DNA from: Gemmata massiliana
GTDB taxonomy: Bacteria > Planctomycetota > Planctomycetia > Gemmatales > Gemmataceae
Assembly: GCA_000531095.1 (NCBI GenBank)
Contig: HG799462.1
Coordinates: 995,551-1,059,550, forward strand
Length of the DNA: 64,000 nucleotides
Reading direction: 5' to 3'
Below are positions 38,679 to 47,879 of the stretch, one piece after another (within the stretch, counting starts at the first letter, position 1; each line of letters begins with the position of its first letter). The notes below the pieces were generated by a model. That model ran no database searches. It was not told the DNA's origin and saw nothing but the letters and a program-made list of their open reading frames with translations. The translations under genes and the position numbers were made by a program.

Positions 38679-39359
38679 CTAAGTCCCAAATTCCATTCGC
38701 AATCGGTTCGCGGCCATGTGTGCCGCTCGGGTCGGTGCGGGGTGCCGGTAGCCGCTCAGCGTCGCCCGGACCAACTGGGTTGCGGAGTCTACGTCGACCT
38801 TGTGCCCCGGCGACACGTACACCGGCTTCACCCCGGTCGCCGAGCGCACCACCGCACCAACTGTCTCACCGTCGAGCGACAGGGGCGTCGCGTCGCCCGC
38901 GTTCGGGCCGGGCTCGGTGTGATCGCCCACGAGCCAGCTCTTCGCGCACCCCACACACGGCAGGTCGAGCCACAATCCGAGGTGGCAGGCCAGACCGAAC
39001 CGGCGCGGGTGCGCGATCCCCTGTCCGTCGAGCATAACCGCGTCGGGTGCGCGGATCAATTCGCCGAACGCGGTGAGCAACGCAGGAATTTCGCGAAACG
39101 ACAACAACCCCGGAACATACGGGAAAGTCACCTCGCGCGTCACCGTGCGCTCTTCGACCACGGACAGGTCGGACGCTCTCAGCACCACGACCGCGGCGAA
39201 CAATCTTGGCTCTGTTAGATGGTAGGCGATGTCGCACCCGGCGACCAATTCAATAGCACCGACCGGCACGGACGTGTCCACGCGGGCAGCGAGTTCGTTT
39301 TGGAGCGCAACAGCGGCTTCTTCTGTTGTCGGCCACTCGTGCAAAGAGGGAAATTGCAT
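38679..39359 (-). CDS. nfi: Endonuclease V
   Basis: 226 residues from ATG 39359 (upstream frame is not protein-like). Endonuclease V cleaves the second phosphodiester bond 3' to deoxyinosine and starts alternative excision repair of deaminated adenine. Catalytic residues are visible: Asp43 in AGCDIAY (most relatives have AGVD), Glu90 in LLSFREIPALL, Asp111 in VMLDGQGIAHPRRFGLACHL, and the late CAKSWLVG element. Length matches the family. Cytoplasmic, apparently monocistronic. Confidence 0.9.
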   Translation of the reverse strand: MQFPSLHEWPTTEEAAVALQNELAARVDTSVPVGAIELVAGCDIAYHLTEPRLFAAVVVLRASDLSVVEERTVTREVTFPYVPGLLSFREIPALLTAFGELIRAPDAVMLDGQGIAHPRRFGLACHLGLWLDLPCVGCAKSWLVGDHTEPGPNAGDATPLSLDGETVGAVVRSATGVKPVYVSPGHKVDVDSATQLVRATLSGYRHPAPTRAAHMAANRLRMEFGT

Positions 39360-39718
39360 AATATTTGTGGAGAGCACAATTTTGCTGAAAGGGACGGATT
39401 GTCCCGGTTGTACGGACGGTCTGTTGGGCCGCGCGGTTCGTTGCGCCGCGAAACCCTTCAGAACCTGTGGGGTTAGTTGGGAATCGCCCCGTCCGTGCTG
39501 CAACGTGACGCGATCGTGTGAGTAAGAAGATCTCCCGCTATGCCCATCTGTTTCCCAAGCCCGCCGCCATGCTTCCCAGGCCACCCGCCCGAGCTGCTGT
39601 GCCCGTGATTTTCGCTCTATGAATCTTTTGCCCCGGACCGCACGCAGACCACCGGCGCGGGTTCATCGGCCTATTGGACAGGACGCCCCGGATCGATTCC
39701 TTGCATGGTGAAGTTTTG

Positions 39719-42700
39719 ATGCCCAACAGTGTGACCGCACCGCGGCAATCGGGTGCCTTTCCGCAGTACAATGGTACCGGCGCCGAACCGCGATTGCTCC
39801 ACGAGTTCTTCGCGCACGCGGCTCGAAAGTGGCCGGACAACGTCGCCATCGACGCCCCGCCCTGTGCCGCGCGCCCGAGCCGCCGCACCATTACATACGC
39901 CGAACTCGACCGCCGAACGGACGCGCTGGCGGCGTATTTGCGCGAGTTCGTGACCGGTGAGTGCGTGGTCGCGATCCTGCTCCCGCGCAACGCGGAGCAC
40001 GTCTACCTCGCGCAGCTCGCGGCGATGAAGGCCGGCGCCGCTTACGTGTGCATCGACCCCACGTTCCCGGACGCACAAGTTGGCATTATTCTCGGGGACG
40101 CGAAGCCCGTTGCCGTATTAACGGATACGACCGGGCTCGGCCGGGTTCGTCGGTGTGCCCCCGCGATTGGGTGCGCGCTTGATGTGGTGGCGTGGGCCGA
40201 CCAGCCCGTGACCTCTGTTCCGCCGCTCCCACCGGCCCCGTGGCTCACACCGCACAGCCTCGCGTACCTCATCTACACGTCGGGCACTACCGGCAAGCCG
40301 AAGGGGGTGATGATCGAGCACGCGGCCATCGCGAACCTCGTTCGCGGCGACCTCGAAACGTTCCCCGCAGCGCCCGAGGACCGCGTCGCGCAGAACTCGT
40401 CGTGCGCCTACGATTCGTCGGTCGAAGAGATCTGGATGGCGCTTGCGGCCGGTGCCACGCTCGTTGTGATGGACGACGACGCGACGCACCTCGGCCCGGA
40501 CCTCGCGCCGTGGCTGCGCACCGAGGCCGTCACGGTCTTCTGTCCGCCGCCGACGCTCCTGCGCACGATCGGGTGTGACGATCCCGAAAGTGCCTTACCG
40601 GACCTGAAACGCATCCACGTTGGCGGGGAGCCGCTCCCGCGTGACGTGGCCGATAAGTGGGCGCCGGGGCGCTGCCTCGTGAACGACTACGGCCCGACCG
40701 AGTGCGCGGTTGTCGCGCTCCGGGGTATCATCCACCCCGGGGACACGATCAACATCGGGCGCCCCGTACCCGGCATTCAGGCGTGGGTACTGAACGAGCA
40801 CCTCGAAGAAGTGGCGCCGGGCGAATCGGGCGAACTTTGCCTCGGCGGTGCGGGTGTGGCCCGCGGGTACCTGAACGACGTCGAACTCACGAACCGCAAG
40901 TTCCCCACGCACCCACGGCTCGGGCGCATCTACCGCACCGGCGACCTCGTTCATCGGGTGGCCGACGGCACGTACATTTGCCACGGCCGGATCGATACAC
41001 AGGTGAAGATCCGCGGGTACCGCATCGAACTGGAAGCGATCGAATCGCGACTTTCTGCGCGTCCCGATGTGCGAGAAGCGGCGTGTCGCGTTCAGGGCGA
41101 GGGGCCGCAGCAGCAAATCGTTGCGTTCGTGGTGCCTGCGAACCCCGCGGCGCCGCCATCGTTCGATGTGCTGAAAGCCGCGCTCCGCGAACAGCTTCCC
41201 GAGTACATGGTGCCGGCCCACTTCGGGCTACTGGCCGCGCTGCCAACTGCGGTGAGCGGGAAGCTCGACCGTCGGGCGCTGCCGACGCTGGAAATTCACG
41301 CGCCAGAGCCGCACGGCCGCATTACCGACCCGCGCGACGAGATCGAAGAGCGCATCGCGACCGCGGTTCGTCGCGTGTTCAATTTGAAGGAGCGCGTTTC
41401 GGTCGATCACGACTTTTTCAACGACCTCGGTGGCGATTCACTTCGCGCCGCGATGCTGATTTCCGCTCTGCGCGACGATCCCGCAACGGCCACCCTCGCC
41501 GTTCGTGATTTGTACCAGACGCGGACGATTGAAGGACTGGCGCAGCGCGTTCGGAACGCAAGCGGCCACGCGAGCCTTCACAAGCCGACCGAACCCACCA
41601 AGCGGCTGAACCCGCTGCTCGCAACGATCGTGCAATCTGCCTGGTTGTTGCTCGGGCTAATGGTTACTGGCCCCGCGCTCTACCTGCTGGCGTTCCACAT
41701 TGTCCCGGATGCCACGGCGAGTTTGGGCTTGGCGCCGTTCCTGCTCACGACGCCGCTGCTCTACGCGGCAGGCATTTGCCTGTACGCGGTCGGTTCCGTG
41801 ATCTTCGCCGTGATGGTGAAGAAAGTGCTGATCGGCCGGTACGAGCCGGTTCGGGCACCGATTTGGGGGAGCTTCTACGTTCGCAACTGGATCGTGCAAC
41901 AAACCGCACGACTCATCCCCTGGCGGTTCTTCGACGGCACCGTTTTCGTGAGCGTGATTTTGCGGGCGCTCGGCGCGAAGGTCGGACGGGGCGTTCACAT
42001 TAGCCGCGGGGTCGCGCTCGTTCACGGCGGGTGGGATCTGCTCGAAATCGGCGACAATGTGACCATCAGTCGCGACGCGACACTGCGCCTCGTTGACCTC
42101 GAAGACGGGCAAATCATCGTCGGTCCGATTTCGATCGGCGCCGGCTGCACGCTCGACATTCGTTCCGGGCTCGCGCCGAACACGCGCATGGAGCCGGATA
42201 GTTACCTCGCGGCTCAGGGCTACGCGCTCTCCGGGGCCGTGCTTTCTCGCGGAACGCGCTGGGCCGGAATTCCGGCTGCGCCCGCGGGCGAAGCCCCGCC
42301 TGCCGCGCAGTTACCGGAAGGTAGCCACGAGCTTTCGCCGGTAATGCACGGCGTCGTGTTACTCGGCGCGAAGTTACTGTTCACGGCGCTTGCGGTCCTT
42401 CCTGTCGCGCTCGCGGTACTGCTGTACGCTCAGGTGCAAGGGATAGACACCGCCGCGGCGACCGCGTGGTTACTGCACCCCACGATCAGTACCGACCAGT
42501 TCGTTCTCTCGGCGCTCGTGGCCGTGCTCATTGTCCCAGCGCTGCTTGTATCGCGGTGCGTCTCGATGCGAACGCTCGGGAAGATTCCCGAGGGCGTGGT
42601 TAGTCGGTGGAGTTACACCTACATCCGCGTGCTGTTGAAGCGGGACATTCTGGATTGGGCGAACGACTGGCTCAACGGCACGCTACTGTGGCGCGTGTGG

Positions 42701-43741
42701 CTGCGCGGCGCGGGCATGAAGATCGCACGCGATACCGAACTGAGTACGATTTTCGACACCGTGCCGGAGTTGGTCGAACTCGGCCCGGGCACCTTCTTCG
42801 CGGACGGCATTTACCTCGGCGCCCCGCACGTTCACCGCGGAACGGTCACCCTGGCACGCACGAAACTCGGGGCCGGCGTGTTCCTCGGTAACTATGCCGT
42901 CATTCCGATCGGTCAGACGATCCCGGACGGCGTGCTCCTCGGAGTCTGCACCGTTGCGGACGATCGCATCATCACGCGCGGAACGTCGTGGTTCGGGGAA
43001 CCGCCGTTCGAGTTGCCGAAGCGGGAGATCGTGGAGGCCGACGCGCGCCTGACGCACAAGCCCTCGTGGATTCGTTACGCGAACCGTGTGTTCTGGGAAC
43101 TGCTGCGGTTCGCACTTCCCCTGGTGCCGCTGGTGCTGGTCGCGACGTGGTTCGCGGTGCTGGAGGCGGTTCAGCCCGAAGTTTCGCTCGCGGTCCTCGC
43201 GTTCGGCGTGGTGCCCGCGCTCGATCTGGGCTTCCTCATAGGGCTGTGCTTGTTCGGGCTGGGCCTGAAGTGGTTCCTGCTCGGTCGCGTGCGCCCGGGC
43301 ACGCGCACACTTTGGTCGTGCTGGTGCAGCCGGTGGGACTTCAACTACATCGCGTGGCACTACCTCGCTTTGGCCCCGATGCAGGCACTCGAAGGTACCG
43401 TTTTGCTGAACGGCTACCTGCGTGCTCTGGGCGTGAAGATCGGGAAGAACGTCGTCGTGGGCGATGTGTTCGCGCTCGTTGTGGACCCCGACATGCTGGA
43501 ACTTCAGGACGGTGCGACCGTGAGTTGCTTGTTCCAGGCCCACACGTTCGAGGACCGCGTGCTCAAGATCGACCGGGTCGTGATCGGGAAGAACTCGTCG
43601 GTGGGGATCGGTGCTGTGCTGCTCTACGGGTGCCACATCGGTGACGGTACTCGCGTGGCGGGGCACAGTGTGGTGATGAAGCGCGAGCGCTTGCAGCCCA
43701 ATCACACCTACGCCGGTTGCCCGACGCACCTGTTGAGCTGA
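39719..43741 (+). CDS. Pls/PosA-type non-ribosomal peptide synthetase, membrane-bound
   Basis: 1,340 residues from ATG 39719. Adenylation domain about 20-540 (core motif A3 LIYTSGTTGKPKGVMIEH at 184-201, A5 NDYGPTECAV, A7 YRTGDLV, A10 SGKLDRRALP). Carrier domain about 550-630 with phosphopantetheine Ser574 in DLGGDSLRA. No condensation or thioesterase domain. The remaining 700 residues alternate six or so transmembrane helices (first near 640-665) with three left-handed beta-helix, hexapeptide-repeat-like soluble modules (for example GWDLLEIGDNVTISRDATL). This A-T-membrane layout defines the Pls/PosA family, whose founder makes epsilon-poly-L-lysine by iterative self-condensation. Product here is probably a homopoly(amino acid); which amino acid is not readable. 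Confidence 0.9.
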   Translation: MPNSVTAPRQSGAFPQYNGTGAEPRLLHEFFAHAARKWPDNVAIDAPPCAARPSRRTITYAELDRRTDALAAYLREFVTGECVVAILLPRNAEHVYLAQLAAMKAGAAYVCIDPTFPDAQVGIILGDAKPVAVLTDTTGLGRVRRCAPAIGCALDVVAWADQPVTSVPPLPPAPWLTPHSLAYLIYTSGTTGKPKGVMIEHAAIANLVRGDLETFPAAPEDRVAQNSSCAYDSSVEEIWMALAAGATLVVMDDDATHLGPDLAPWLRTEAVTVFCPPPTLLRTIGCDDPESALPDLKRIHVGGEPLPRDVADKWAPGRCLVNDYGPTECAVVALRGIIHPGDTINIGRPVPGIQAWVLNEHLEEVAPGESGELCLGGAGVARGYLNDVELTNRKFPTHPRLGRIYRTGDLVHRVADGTYICHGRIDTQVKIRGYRIELEAIESRLSARPDVREAACRVQGEGPQQQIVAFVVPANPAAPPSFDVLKAALREQLPEYMVPAHFGLLAALPTAVSGKLDRRALPTLEIHAPEPHGRITDPRDEIEERIATAVRRVFNLKERVSVDHDFFNDLGGDSLRAAMLISALRDDPATATLAVRDLYQTRTIEGLAQRVRNASGHASLHKPTEPTKRLNPLLATIVQSAWLLLGLMVTGPALYLLAFHIVPDATASLGLAPFLLTTPLLYAAGICLYAVGSVIFAVMVKKVLIGRYEPVRAPIWGSFYVRNWIVQQTARLIPWRFFDGTVFVSVILRALGAKVGRGVHISRGVALVHGGWDLLEIGDNVTISRDATLRLVDLEDGQIIVGPISIGAGCTLDIRSGLAPNTRMEPDSYLAAQGYALSGAVLSRGTRWAGIPAAPAGEAPPAAQLPEGSHELSPVMHGVVLLGAKLLFTALAVLPVALAVLLYAQVQGIDTAAATAWLLHPTISTDQFVLSALVAVLIVPALLVSRCVSMRTLGKIPEGVVSRWSYTYIRVLLKRDILDWANDWLNGTLLWRVWLRGAGMKIARDTELSTIFDTVPELVELGPGTFFADGIYLGAPHVHRGTVTLARTKLGAGVFLGNYAVIPIGQTIPDGVLLGVCTVADDRIITRGTSWFGEPPFELPKREIVEADARLTHKPSWIRYANRVFWELLRFALPLVPLVLVATWFAVLEAVQPEVSLAVLAFGVVPALDLGFLIGLCLFGLGLKWFLLGRVRPGTRTLWSCWCSRWDFNYIAWHYLALAPMQALEGTVLLNGYLRALGVKIGKNVVVGDVFALVVDPDMLELQDGATVSCLFQAHTFEDRVLKIDRVVIGKNSSVGIGAVLLYGCHIGDGTRVAGHSVVMKRERLQPNHTYAGCPTHLLS

Positions 43742-43790: not shown

Positions 43791-45779
43791 CTACTTGCGC
43801 GAAGCGTACCACTCGCGCCACTCGTTCGCGGTGGCGAAATCCTTCTCGGTGAGGCTCTTCAATCCGGCGCGGGCCGCTTTCGCAACGGCCTCGTTCTTGT
43901 CGCTCAGTGCGTCGATCAGGTCGGGGATGTGGTTCTTGTCATCCTTCATCGCGCACGCGAGCGCGGCCCCTCGGCGCAGCTCTACGTCCTCGGCTTTCAG
44001 CATCCCGCGGAGCGAAATCGGCGTCATGCGACACAGGCGCTCAGCGAGGGCCTCGCGCGCGGTCGCCTTCCGCTCGCCTTCGAGTAGCGGAATCACGGCG
44101 AGCAGCGCTCCGGTGTTCTCCTGCCCCTTCGCTTCGCGGACGCGCTTGAGTGTGGCCTCCCAGTCCACGTTCGACGTGCGCGTGAGTTCGATGGCGATCT
44201 CACTCGCGGTCGTGCCCTGCGTCGGTTTCGGGGTGCTCGGCGGCACCAGGGTAATGGGTTTGCTTGGCGGCTCGACTGTTCCGGGCGCCGGCTTCGTGGG
44301 AGCCTCCGGTTTCGCGCTTGGTTCTGGTTTCGTGCCCGGTTCGGTTTTTGCCGCGACCGCATCGTCCGGCGCGGGTGGGGCGGCGTTCGCCCGGAGTTCC
44401 GCGTTGGCCGGGTTCCGTTGAACTTTCGCCGCGAGGTCGCGTGCGAGGTTGGAGCGCGAGAGGAACAGGATCGCGAAGGCGGTGTCCACGTCCGTACCAT
44501 GCCCGCTGCGCCCGACCCATGACCCGTCGCCGCGTTGGGTAGCGATCAGCGCATTGGCGCCGAAATCGTACCAGTCGACGTCACCGATCTTGTCCACCCC
44601 ATAGATGACGCCGACGCGCTCCAGGGACCAGAAGAAATATAGGTCGGCGTCGTTCCCGCGCCGGCCGCGCCCGCCGTTTGCGAGTGCGGCTGCGAGGTTC
44701 GCCATGCCGAGTTTTACGGCCGCGTCACGGGGATCAACCGGCCCCTTATTCGGCTTTGGTGCGGCCGGATCCGCGGGCTTCTTCGGCGGTGCCGGTTCGG
44801 GCATTTTGGGCGGATTGTAGAACGGGTCGTTCGGGTCTATATCGGCCGAGACGACGGGTTTAGTGGGTGCCGGCTTCGGCTCTTTTGCTTCCGGCTTCCC
44901 GACGAGCGCGGCCTTCTGTTTCTTCTCCTCGCGCCGGGCGATCGCGGTCGCGAGACCGAGCAGCCCGGCGCACGTCATCGACGGGCTGCCGTCGGCGCCC
45001 CCCAGAAGTCCGCTGTAGGGCCACCCGCCGGATGCGGTCTGTTGCAAGAGGAATCGCTTCTCGATGAGGTCGAGGGCGGGTTCGACTGGGACGCCGTGCT
45101 TGCGCGCGGTCCACACACCGAGCACACCGAACTGCGTGTTCGAGTTGTCGTCGGGCAGTCGGCCCCGGCCGGTCTCTGCCGCGAGCAGCGCTTGACGGTA
45201 CTTCTCCACGTCCGCGTGGAGCTTCCCGGTCGCACCGGGCTTGTCCGCGGGCTTCGGTGCGCCCAATTTGGTGGGTTCCGGTTCCTTGCCACTCCCCGTC
45301 ACGAGTGTGGTGTCGGAGAGCCTAGTACGAAGGAGGCGCTCGGTCGCGGGCGGAACGGCCGCGACGCACTCGTAGGTCCAGCCGCCGTTCATGTTTTGGC
45401 CCGCGAGGAGCCGCACACCGAGCATCTGGATCAGCGGCCGGTCGCCCGGTTCGCCGAGGCGGTCGAGGTACAAGAGGCAAAGGGTGATGTGGTACGTTTG
45501 GGTTTGCGTGTACGACGCATCGCGGACGACGGTGGTGATCTTCTTCACGGCAGCGTCATCGGCCGGCACACCGGCTTCGAGTAACGCGAGACCCACAAGT
45601 GCCGTCGCCCCAACGCGGTCGGGATCACGGATCGCCTTCCCGTTTTCGCCCCCGGATTTTTTGAGGTACGCGATTCCCTTCTGAACTGCCGCATCGATGT
45701 CTTTGGGCGCAGCCGCGCGCGCAGAATGCGGGACCGAAATCGCGAGTACAAGCGCCAATAGAAGACGCAAGAGCGCCAT
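43791..45779 (-). CDS. Exported squalene cyclase-like repeat protein, paralogue 1
   Basis: 662 residues. Signal peptide at about 1-22. Residues about 25-400 show prenyltransferase/squalene-cyclase-like alpha-alpha repeats (GATALVGLALLEAGVPADDA, then NMNGGWTYE and ASGGWPYSGLLG) but no DXDD catalytic motif is seen. A proline/lysine linker (about 295-345) divides the repeats; the C-terminal 130 residues are HEAT-like (LRRGAALACAMKDDKNHIPD, LIDALSDKNEAVAKAARAG). Same order as the next gene upstream, with which it clearly shares ancestry. Likely a periplasmic binding or scaffold protein rather than an enzyme. Confidence 0.8.
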   Translation of the reverse strand: MALLRLLLALVLAISVPHSARAAAPKDIDAAVQKGIAYLKKSGGENGKAIRDPDRVGATALVGLALLEAGVPADDAAVKKITTVVRDASYTQTQTYHITLCLLYLDRLGEPGDRPLIQMLGVRLLAGQNMNGGWTYECVAAVPPATERLLRTRLSDTTLVTGSGKEPEPTKLGAPKPADKPGATGKLHADVEKYRQALLAAETGRGRLPDDNSNTQFGVLGVWTARKHGVPVEPALDLIEKRFLLQQTASGGWPYSGLLGGADGSPSMTCAGLLGLATAIARREEKKQKAALVGKPEAKEPKPAPTKPVVSADIDPNDPFYNPPKMPEPAPPKKPADPAAPKPNKGPVDPRDAAVKLGMANLAAALANGGRGRRGNDADLYFFWSLERVGVIYGVDKIGDVDWYDFGANALIATQRGDGSWVGRSGHGTDVDTAFAILFLSRSNLARDLAAKVQRNPANAELRANAAPPAPDDAVAAKTEPGTKPEPSAKPEAPTKPAPGTVEPPSKPITLVPPSTPKPTQGTTASEIAIELTRTSNVDWEATLKRVREAKGQENTGALLAVIPLLEGERKATAREALAERLCRMTPISLRGMLKAEDVELRRGAALACAMKDDKNHIPDLIDALSDKNEAVAKAARAGLKSLTEKDFATANEWREWYASRK

Positions 45780-45974: not shown

Positions 45975-47879
45975 CTATTTCTTTTGCTTCGTGTACCAAT
46001 CTCGCCATGCGGCTGCGGCCGCGGCCTTTTGTGCCGCTGTTGCCCCGGAAACGGGGCCAAAGTCCTTTCCGGACAAACTCTTAAGGCCGGCTTTCGCGGC
46101 CCGAACCACGGAATCGTCCGCGTCGGCAATCAGGTCGATCAGGTCGGGGATGTGCTCCTTATCGTCCTTCATCGCACACGCGACCGCAGCCCCGCGGCGC
46201 AGTTCGGCCTCGCTCGCTTTCAGCATGGTGCGGAGCGAAGCCGGCGTCATGCGGCACAGGCGCTCGGCGAGGGCCTCTCGCGCGGCGGCCTTGCGGTCGC
46301 CGTCCGCGTGAGTCGCTGTCACCACCAGCGCGCGCGTGTGGGTCGGTCCCTTGGCGTCGCGGGATTCGGTGAGCAACTTGGTCCAGTCACTGCTCGACGA
46401 TTTCAGCAACAGAGAGGCGCGCGTGATGGCCTCGTCGCCGGTCGGGTTCGGCAGATTGACGACCGGTATCGCGGCGCTCACCGGCGTGGTCGGCCGGTTG
46501 GGGAGCAGGTCGGTCGCGGCCGGCCCGGTCCCGGCTTTCATTTCGGTGCTGGTGGGGTCTTTTTGCACCTTGTTGGACAGGTCGCGTGCGAGGTTCGAGC
46601 GGCAGAGGAAGAGGACCGCGAACGACGTGTTCACTTCGGCCCCGTAACTCCCGCCGATGCCCCACGAGCCGTCCGCCCCTTGCGAGCGCACAAGGGCCGT
46701 GGAACCGATGTCGTACCAGTCGATGTCGCCGATCTTTTCCAAACCGTAGGTGACGCCGACGCGCTCCAAGGACCAGAGGAAGTACAGGTCGCCGTGCCCG
46801 TGCCCCCCGCCGTTGGCGACGAGTAACCCCCTGCCGGCACGGATCTGGTCGATGATGGTCAGCCCCAACCCGGCAAAGGCGCGCTGGATGACGAGGTCGC
46901 GTGCGTCGGCGGGGCGGGCCTGCGGCTTCTTGGGCGGGTCCTTCCCGGCGGGCGGGTTGTAGAACGGGTCGTTGGGCTTATTGGGTTTCGCGGGGTCCGG
47001 TTTCGGAGCCGGGTTATCGGTCTTCAGGCGCCGTTCCTCGCGCCGGGCCACACCGGTCGCCATCCCGAGCAACCCCGCGCAGTACATCGCGGGGCTCCCG
47101 GCGGGGGCGATGCCCGCGGGGCCTGTTCCCCCAGAGTACGGCCAGTTCCCGGTGCGCTGGTCCTGGGCGCCCATGAACCGCTTCTCGATGAGATCGAGGG
47201 CTTCTTCTACAGGGGCGCCGTGTTTGCGGGACATCCACACCGCCATCACCGCGAACTGCGTGTTCGAGTTGTCGTCTCCCCCTCCGATTCCCCCACCCTG
47301 GGCGCGAGCGGCAACCAGTGCCTGGCCGTATTTCTCAACGTCTGCGTTGAGTTTGGGTGGCTTTCCGTTTTCACCAGCGGTCAGGCGGACCTGTTGAAGA
47401 CTGTTTTTGAGGTACGTCGCGGTTTCCGCGGAAACCGGCTGGATGCTCTGGTACGTCCAGCCGCCGTTGACCGACTGCCCGACGATCAGGCGCGCCGCGA
47501 GCATCTGAATGATCGCGGCGTCGCTCGGGTCACCGAGGCGGTCGAGGTACATGATGGACAACGAGATCTGGTACGTTTGGTTCTGTGTGAACGAGGCGTC
47601 GCGGACGAGGGCGGTGATCGCTTTCACCGCGGGGTCGTCGACCGGTACGCCCGCTTCCAGAAGTGCCAGCCCGGAGAGGCACGTCGGGCCGATGCCGTAG
47701 CTGGCCTCGTTGCCCCCGTTGAAACCTTGCCCCGGCTTCTGGTTGTAGCGCGCTTTGAGGTGCTCGGCCCCGGCTTTAATCGCGCGATCGATTTCTTTTG
47801 GTGTGGCTCCCGGCGCGGTCTGTCCCGCAGCCAGGACGATACTGCACAGCCCGGCGAGACGAACGAATTTTGAGATCAT
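45975..47879 (-). CDS. Exported squalene cyclase-like repeat protein, paralogue 2
   Basis: 634 residues, signal peptide about 1-23 (LAGLCSIVLAAGQTAPGA). Same layout as the neighbouring gene: alpha-alpha repeats (YGIGPTCLSGLALLEAGVPV, QSVNGGWTYQS, RTGNWPYSGG), a lysine/proline/asparagine linker, YFLWSLERVGVTYGLEKIGD, then HEAT-like C-terminus (LRRGAAVACAMKDDKEHIPD). Near-identical blocks with paralogue 1 (SLERVGV.YG.(D/E)KIGD(V/I)DWYD and the HEAT end) show a tandem duplication, while linkers have diverged. Confidence 0.8.
   Translation of the reverse strand: MISKFVRLAGLCSIVLAAGQTAPGATPKEIDRAIKAGAEHLKARYNQKPGQGFNGGNEASYGIGPTCLSGLALLEAGVPVDDPAVKAITALVRDASFTQNQTYQISLSIMYLDRLGDPSDAAIIQMLAARLIVGQSVNGGWTYQSIQPVSAETATYLKNSLQQVRLTAGENGKPPKLNADVEKYGQALVAARAQGGGIGGGDDNSNTQFAVMAVWMSRKHGAPVEEALDLIEKRFMGAQDQRTGNWPYSGGTGPAGIAPAGSPAMYCAGLLGMATGVARREERRLKTDNPAPKPDPAKPNKPNDPFYNPPAGKDPPKKPQARPADARDLVIQRAFAGLGLTIIDQIRAGRGLLVANGGGHGHGDLYFLWSLERVGVTYGLEKIGDIDWYDIGSTALVRSQGADGSWGIGGSYGAEVNTSFAVLFLCRSNLARDLSNKVQKDPTSTEMKAGTGPAATDLLPNRPTTPVSAAIPVVNLPNPTGDEAITRASLLLKSSSSDWTKLLTESRDAKGPTHTRALVVTATHADGDRKAAAREALAERLCRMTPASLRTMLKASEAELRRGAAVACAMKDDKEHIPDLIDLIADADDSVVRAAKAGLKSLSGKDFGPVSGATAAQKAAAAAAWRDWYTKQKK

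Follow-up and report, generated by a model that had tools for sequence, protein, structure and literature searches.

The stretch of DNA analysed here, called the window throughout, comprises 64,000 nucleotides of contig HG799462.1 of the planctomycete Gemmata massiliana, and the element under study is a single gene at window positions 39719-43741 of the plus strand, an intact frame of 1340 residues with zero internal stops whose product an earlier note, made from the sequence alone, had taken for a Pls/PosA-type synthetase of a poly(amino acid). The ATG at 39719 is favoured as the start over a longer TTG frame at 39674 because several relatives open likewise (MP...) and the sequence GGTGAAG lies just 5' of it. 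The features of the gene are given below, where "type B" is the name given here to a branch apart from the classical Pls/PosA enzymes and pocket positions are also given in PheA numbering, which is the numbering used for pocket positions in the text; individual rows and loci carry L numbers and genomes G numbers.

39719..43741, plus strand: synthetase, whole gene, 1340 aa (open frame)
39809..41281, plus strand: adenylation domain, residues ~31-521 (PF00501, PF13193, TIGR01733; core motifs intact)
40412..40426, plus strand: pocket residues Asp232, Ser233 and Glu236, PheA 235, 236 and 239 (alignment)
40616..40618, plus strand: pocket residue His300, PheA 299 (nearly every type B row from outside Gemmataceae has Tyr)
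40685..40687, plus strand: pocket residue Asp323, PheA 322 (most type B rows have Gly, Pls and PosA have Thr)
41348..41551, plus strand: carrier (thiolation) domain, residues 544-611 (PF00550)
41438-41440, plus strand: phosphopantetheine site Ser574 (GGDSL motif)
41612..41830, plus strand: first helix pair, residues 632-704, presumed membrane hairpin (AlphaFold2 model)
41927..42298, plus strand: first left-handed beta-helix C1, residues ~737-860 (profile match, model, fold search)
42338..42574, plus strand: second helix pair, residues 874-952 (AlphaFold2 model)
42713..43018, plus strand: second beta-helix segment C2, residues ~999-1100 (profile match, model)
43067..43282, plus strand: third helix group, residues 1117-1188 (AlphaFold2 model)
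43430..43732, plus strand: third beta-helix segment C3, residues ~1238-1338, hexapeptide repeats (PF00132, profile match, model)
43535..43558, plus strand: motif QAHTFEDR, residues 1273-1280, with candidate catalytic His1275 (conservation)

The single-chain order of adenylation (A) domain, carrier and terminal membrane domain that characterizes Pls and PosA is present in this protein. Pfam matches (E 0.001) comprise AMP-binding at residues 31-385 (E 5.5e-75), AMP-binding_C at 441-515, PP-binding at 544-611 and Hexapep at 1287-1319, the NCBIfam model TIGR01733 (amino acid adenylation) scores over its cut-off, and both the adenylation core motifs and the carrier motif GGDSL with Ser574 are intact. 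No condensation or thioesterase domain occurs among its Pfam (at the same threshold) and NCBIfam matches, as the earlier note had stated. TIGR02353, which describes the Pls/PosA terminal domain, aligns with residues 686-1335 at E 2.9e-106, and its score of 356.4 bits falls under the curated cut-off of 423.1.

When a profile of the C-terminal part was compared with the Protein Data Bank, left-handed beta-helices were matched at all three segments (best stretches e.g. 119-237, 379-494 and 618-718 of 720 positions), and an AlphaFold2 model of the same part, built on 55 sequences, reached a mean predicted local distance difference test score of 91.7 and a predicted template modelling score of 0.91. 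Helix groups lie at model residues 12-84, 254-332 and 497-568 with a strand-rich unit after each, so that the predicted model contains six helices in three pairs, each pair followed by a left-handed beta-helix, the arrangement expected of a Pls/PosA enzyme. A fold search, which covered mainly the first beta-helix (model residues 113-244), aligned C1 to hexapeptide acyltransferases with Z 14-15; neither sequence nor fold search returned a solved structure of the whole terminal domain, the matches being single-domain beta-helix proteins. Pfam, profile and model thus bear out the composition previously read from the letters, namely adenylation, carrier, helix-pair (presumed membrane) and three left-handed beta-helix units in one protein of 1,340 residues.

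The place of this protein among its relatives is a separate branch. In a quick tree of 81 rows, midpoint-rooted for drawing only, 77 type B rows split from four classical ones with an SH-aLRT of 100, and the window falls in a clade of 17 rows (support 100) made up of 16 Gemmataceae and one gammaproteobacterial metagenome-assembled genome (MAG; L123); L055, a Gemmataceae row with a code like those for diaminobutyrate or diaminopropionate (Dab/Dap), lies outside that clade at the type B base. Seventeen rows were left out of the tree and conservation row sets (11 duplicates of window-family loci and 6 incomplete or poorly aligned), and L090, L092 and L128 are absent from the tree and included in the motif, code and conservation row sets. 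Scores against TIGR02353 follow the same division: eight other type B terminal domains, seven from six other phyla and one from Gemmataceae (L055, also among the 17 family matches that follow), reached 360-398 bits, 8/8 under the cut-off, versus 615.9 for the classical control L041. Among 95 Gemmataceae genomes, 17 (host included) hold one full-length type B match each, at 347-380 bits and all under the cut-off, three further genomes give partial matches (G013 226, G008 77 and G030 63 bits), and four classical copies over the cut-off occur in three genomes (612-670 bits), three of the four with lysine-type pockets. Across 392 genomes of the phylum, 15, again with the host, match at E <= 1e-40, one of them over the cut-off and 14 under it (316-390 bits). 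One Gemmataceae genome, G028, carries two classical Pls/PosA genes (L039 and L040, pockets DAESIGTVIK and DFECLSAVTK), which perhaps make two polymers.

Beyond the phylum, contigs of 84,980 species were scanned with the terminal domain of type B, and the best 80 of 210 confirmed stretches were followed up, so that the counts lean to the window's kin. Judged by record titles, many of them of MAGs, these 80 belong to Planctomycetota, Acidobacteriota, Verrucomicrobiota, Pseudomonadota, Actinomycetota, Armatimonadota, Bdellovibrionota and Myxococcota. The type B genes on Streptomyces plasmids are annotated merely as 'amino acid adenylation domain-containing protein', and with below-cut-off scores and such generic annotation the branch is easily overlooked. 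Four genes in a row come after the type B gene on one linear Streptomyces plasmid (L153:14296-20415); their products have 458-464 residues and no Pfam match, and the one scanned is an NsdA-family regulator (NF053720), so that the run may consist of copies of one regulator type.

The alignment assigns to the window enzyme the pocket code DSECHGDVVK (residues 232, 233, 236, 275, 300, 302, 323, 331, 332 and 515). Control codes came out as expected, with DAESIGTVVK in the annotated Pls row L155 (Streptomyces), DFECLSAVTK in a Pls/PosA enzyme whose gene neighbours one for diaminobutyrate transaminase (L170), and, in the Sphingomonas row L171, DMEHNGTVTK, which differs by a single letter from the PosA code in print, DMEHNGTVSK. 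The window code matches none of the recovered or published lysine, ornithine or Dab/Dap-type codes. Type B as a whole has a strikingly uniform pocket, DSECYGGVTK, found in 72/92 rows and in 71/75 type B rows outside Gemmataceae (exceptions L092, L123, L144 and L145; 70/74 once L112 and L159, identical proteins of one contig, are counted once), and in 11/11 further planctomycete rows. From this consensus the window departs at 299, 322 and 331, with His, Asp and Val for Tyr, Gly and Thr, and by its position in the tree the window pocket is a derived state within type B.

The remodelling concerns positions with a known role. According to PMC10522769 and PMC11253843, Glu239 of Pls and PosA forms a salt bridge to the side-chain cation of the substrate, Asp235 binds its alpha-amine, and position 322 is a Thr that bonds its terminal amine (T301 in Pls and T304 in PosA, which we assigned to 322 by motif spacing). 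Both acids of the Pls/PosA pocket are kept in the window, as Asp232 and Glu236; in three close relatives of the same genus Glu239 is replaced by Ala or Ser, and all three carry Asp322. Among the 17 Gemmataceae rows (the window and L043-L058), 13 combine His299 with Asp322, three Tyr with Gly and one Leu with Thr, and His299 accompanies Asp322 in 14/15 of all Asp322 rows, the remaining one (L092) having Tyr299. Over the 83 readable codes, Glu239 is lost in 3/15 rows with Asp322 and 0/68 without it, a count uncorrected for kinship, and on the tree, with the classical rows kept in, three changes are required at 239 and five each at 299 and 322. A loss confined to Asp322 rows would fit a takeover of the salt bridge by Asp322, and the pattern suggests that a substrate-reading acid was gained at 322 and then became dispensable at 239, which in turn points to a singly charged side chain.

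As regards the size of that side chain, the window has Ser, Cys, His and Asp where the Pls row L155 has Ala, Ser, Ile and Thr, and since the exchanges at 236, 278 and 322 alter size little, a lysine-sized substrate is the first guess. We lean, tentatively, toward a side chain with one positive charge and roughly the size of lysine's, with arginine size as a second, somewhat less likely choice. A carboxylic-acid substrate is unlikely, given that Asp235, the alpha-amine ligand, is kept in 92/92 type B rows. Of the surface polycation suggested in the earlier note, the polycationic character is plausible, the pocket retaining in Asp232 and Glu236 the ligands for the alpha-amine and for the cation, while no known diamino acid code is matched. 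The label "Pls/PosA-type" survives in part, for the architecture and for Asp235/Glu239, and gives way at the level of the family, the protein scoring under the TIGR02353 cut-off, lying on a separate branch and bearing none of the known Lys, Orn, Dab or Dap codes.

Conservation also singles out a candidate polymerisation site. Gln1273 and His1275 occur in 92/92 type B and in 10/10 usable classical rows (10 of 11, L174 being excluded), and the terminal part of the window enzyme has 16 histidines, of which His1275 alone is invariant in both branches; the surrounding motif, QAHTFEDR in the window, reads QTHLFEDR in 6/10 classical rows. Other conserved terminal residues are type B-specific, e.g. 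Trp772, His760 and Trp1206. We propose that the pseudo-three-fold domain may have a single catalytic site, in its third beta-helix.

Starting from the architecture, the intact A and carrier motifs, the fold and the single invariant His, all read directly from the sequence and the predicted model, we infer, at a probability of roughly two in three, that the window gene encodes a presumably membrane-bound single-module synthetase that polymerises one basic amino acid into a homopolymer (or short oligomer). The A domain would activate the amino acid with ATP and load it onto the carrier at Ser574; the three units of hairpin and left-handed beta-helix would act as one pseudo-three-fold membrane polymerase, in which the loaded residue would be passed to the amine of the growing chain at a single site near His1275 in the third beta-helix, the chain growing without a condensation or thioesterase domain. 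The window's family would have rebuilt its pocket by adding an Asp at 322.

A number of considerations weigh against this interpretation. We know of no isolated product of any type B enzyme; the guanidine of arginine is a poor nucleophile, and an isopeptide-linked poly-arginine is unlikely. The C-terminal part is 24-29% identical to the four classical rows aligned with it, and the 3/15 association of Glu239 loss with Asp322, besides being uncorrected for kinship, corresponds to three changes at 239 on the tree. In the literature we consulted, the active site of the terminal domain is unproven even for Pls and PosA, and our single-His reading is drawn from conservation. Finally, the arginine activity of Bdello_A, the A domain of a Bdellovibrionales protein, was modest (PMC10522769).

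That same activity is the starting point of an alternative in which type B enzymes, the window's included, are poly-arginine synthetases that activate arginine and join it by alpha-amide links. Bdello_A does activate L-Arg (PMC10522769), and positions 239 and 278, with a spacing of 39, are the arginine positions E204 and S243 of ApnA_A1 (PMC11253843); however, the activity was modest and comes from one test, the window pocket differs at 299, 322 and 331, and the proven relatives covered by the literature we consulted use side-chain amines, so that we consider poly-arginine an unlikely product. Doubts about the terminal part lead to another alternative, in which the enzyme would be an aminoacyl transferase, not a polymerase, handing a basic residue once or a few times to a membrane acceptor (lipid, glycan or wall), by analogy with D-alanylation or with N-/O-acetyltransferases of beta-helix fold. 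The nearest solved folds are mostly one-step acyltransferases, and the C-terminal part is far removed from the classical rows, with some conserved residues specific to type B; against this, the three-hairpin, three-helix build of the polymerase and the His/Gln motif are retained, and acceptor-synthesis genes are absent from the four neighbours scanned (the other genes were unscanned), all of which leaves this alternative improbable.

A last alternative arises from the gene that often accompanies type B synthetases. In 29/69 type B loci (the best 80 of 210 minus duplicates of window-family loci; among the other 40 loci, at least L080, L118 and L152 are cut before the synthetase start) and in 6/11 further planctomycete loci, the synthetase gene is preceded on its own strand by a SET-domain gene. 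Its product has ~160-270 residues, and the gene mostly overlaps or abuts that of the synthetase, being 309 bases away in L087; 27 of the 29 score 178-264 bits, and the remaining two are weak, with 67 bits in L094 and 77 bits in L123. No SET gene was found at the 17 Gemmataceae loci (window included), at four classical Gemmataceae loci or at two Streptomyces plasmid type B loci. At the level of genomes, the SET profile finds one match elsewhere in the window genome (71 bits), matches of 65-66 bits in two of three same-genus genomes, 63 bits in one of two Gemmataceae genomes and 44 bits in the Bdellovibrionales genome of L150, 216-244 bits in three actinomycete genomes with an upstream SET gene, and nothing in the genomes of L125 and L135. 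In eight sphingomonad genomes whose type B enzyme has the same pocket code, the profile matched nothing in seven and gave a weak match of 93 bits in one. The one SET partner searched has BurB as its best solved relative (E 9.5e-9), a methionine S-methyltransferase (PMC12542666), and the SET protein perhaps methylates the monomer or the product. Since it is mostly missing in the sphingomonad type B genomes, we take it to be accessory and reject it as a general, obligatory supplier of the monomer.

Against this background it is very improbable that type B uses a methylated amino acid supplied by the SET protein (S-methylmethionine or N-methyl-lysine), with the window's family having lost the partner and changed substrate: the upstream SET genes, the BurB relationship and a methionine synthase-type gene near three loci speak for it, and the sphingomonads with the same pocket and no more than a weak SET match, the distance of the BurB match and the lack of a side-chain amine in S-methylmethionine speak against it. 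The gene last mentioned, of the cobalamin-dependent methionine synthase type, lies near SET and type B genes in L086, L105 and L132 (titled Pedosphaera or Verrucomicrobia), the type being Pfam-confirmed in L105 only (e.g. L105:13623-17411). In the gammaproteobacterial MAG L123 (5605-6171), a remodelled-type pocket, DSECHGDITK, occurs together with a divergent upstream SET protein (77 bits), a combination that could reflect horizontal transfer or a binning error. The sphingomonad loci share as common neighbours an amino acid permease, a FAD-dependent oxidoreductase, a serralysin-like protease and a hydrolase, the permease cluster also holding two Lentzea loci; this set looks like synteny of close kin and was not used as evidence.

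The preferred reading, a single-module synthetase for a basic homopolymer, may have a wider bearing. Only a small number of natural homo-poly(amino acids) are known, and enzymes of this type make some with antimicrobial or antifungal activity (PMC10522769); a broad branch with one conserved, functionally unassigned pocket points to a further polymer. More speculatively, and at less than even odds, type B might represent an ancient, so far unrecognised group of poly(amino acid) synthetases that spans some eight phyla and has a near-frozen pocket, often a SET partner and an undescribed cationic polymer (perhaps of arginine or a methylated basic amino acid), the charge-reading acid moving from 239 to 322 in the window's family as natural monomer-switching intermediates. 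The Gemmataceae pocket series, with an acid at 322 and none at 239 in three relatives, would expose rules of monomer choice through natural intermediates. Among the open-licence papers searched, none dealt with the type B branch or with such a polymer in planctomycetes; the combination of SET and Pls was outside that search, and codes printed with spaces escape a one-word search.

The immediate surroundings of the gene are as follows.

38679-39584, minus strand: endonuclease V gene, upstream neighbour, opposite in strand to the synthetase
43791-45779, minus strand: gene for a 662-residue protein with a weak HEAT match, downstream neighbour

Both flanking genes are thus on the strand opposite to the synthetase, which is apparently a single-gene unit, and no dedicated gene cluster was found around it; two phosphopantetheinyl transferase matches over cut-off are present in the host genome. 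The HEAT-repeat match of the downstream product lies near its end and is under the curated cut-off, with no NCBIfam match, and the gene adjoins a similar-looking one at 45975-47879 (minus strand), the two products having 662 and 634 residues. Endonuclease V and a Fur-type regulator are syntenic in five same-genus loci, which may reflect kinship only. Five window-family loci (L043, L044, L045, L052 and L058) keep a sigma-70-type factor gene beside type B (Pfam match in L052) and, nearby, a 310-residue protein without a Pfam match (L045).

The known systems closest to the window enzyme and its branch compare as follows. BurB, the nearest solved relative of the SET protein beside type B genes, is a distant one, and the window has no such gene. 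ApnA_A1, an Arg/Tyr-activating A domain, has Glu and a small residue at the presumed positions 239 and 278 (E204, S243), as in the window, and differs in being part of an anabaenopeptin assembly line (PMC11253843). Bdello_A (Bdellovibrionales protein OFZ39577.1) has the pocket DSECYGGVTK and activates L-Arg modestly and no known diamino acid (PMC10522769); its pocket is the type B consensus, from which the window differs by His, Asp and Val for Tyr, Gly and Thr at 299, 322 and 331. The same code occurs in a type B protein of a Bdellovibrionales genome (L150), which may be OFZ39577.1 itself. PosA, the delta-poly-L-ornithine synthetase of Acinetobacter baumannii, resembles the window enzyme in architecture, and the computed model published for it, in which three left-handed beta-helices of five turns each stand above a bundle of helices (PMC10522769), agrees with our AlphaFold2 model, whereas its pocket, DMEHNGTVSK, differs; the alignment of the C-terminal part of the window enzyme to A. 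baumannii plasmid-collection records is split in two, with 30.3% identity. Pls, the epsilon-poly-L-lysine synthetase of Streptomyces albulus (A domain 7WEW), differs in belonging to the separate classical branch, in its pocket (DAESIGTVVK in row L155 versus DSECHGDVVK in the window) and in having Thr322 versus the window's Asp; it is like the window enzyme in its single chain of A domain, carrier and membrane terminal domain, in Asp235 and Glu239, and in the His of the C3 motif, seen in the annotated Pls row L155 of another Streptomyces.

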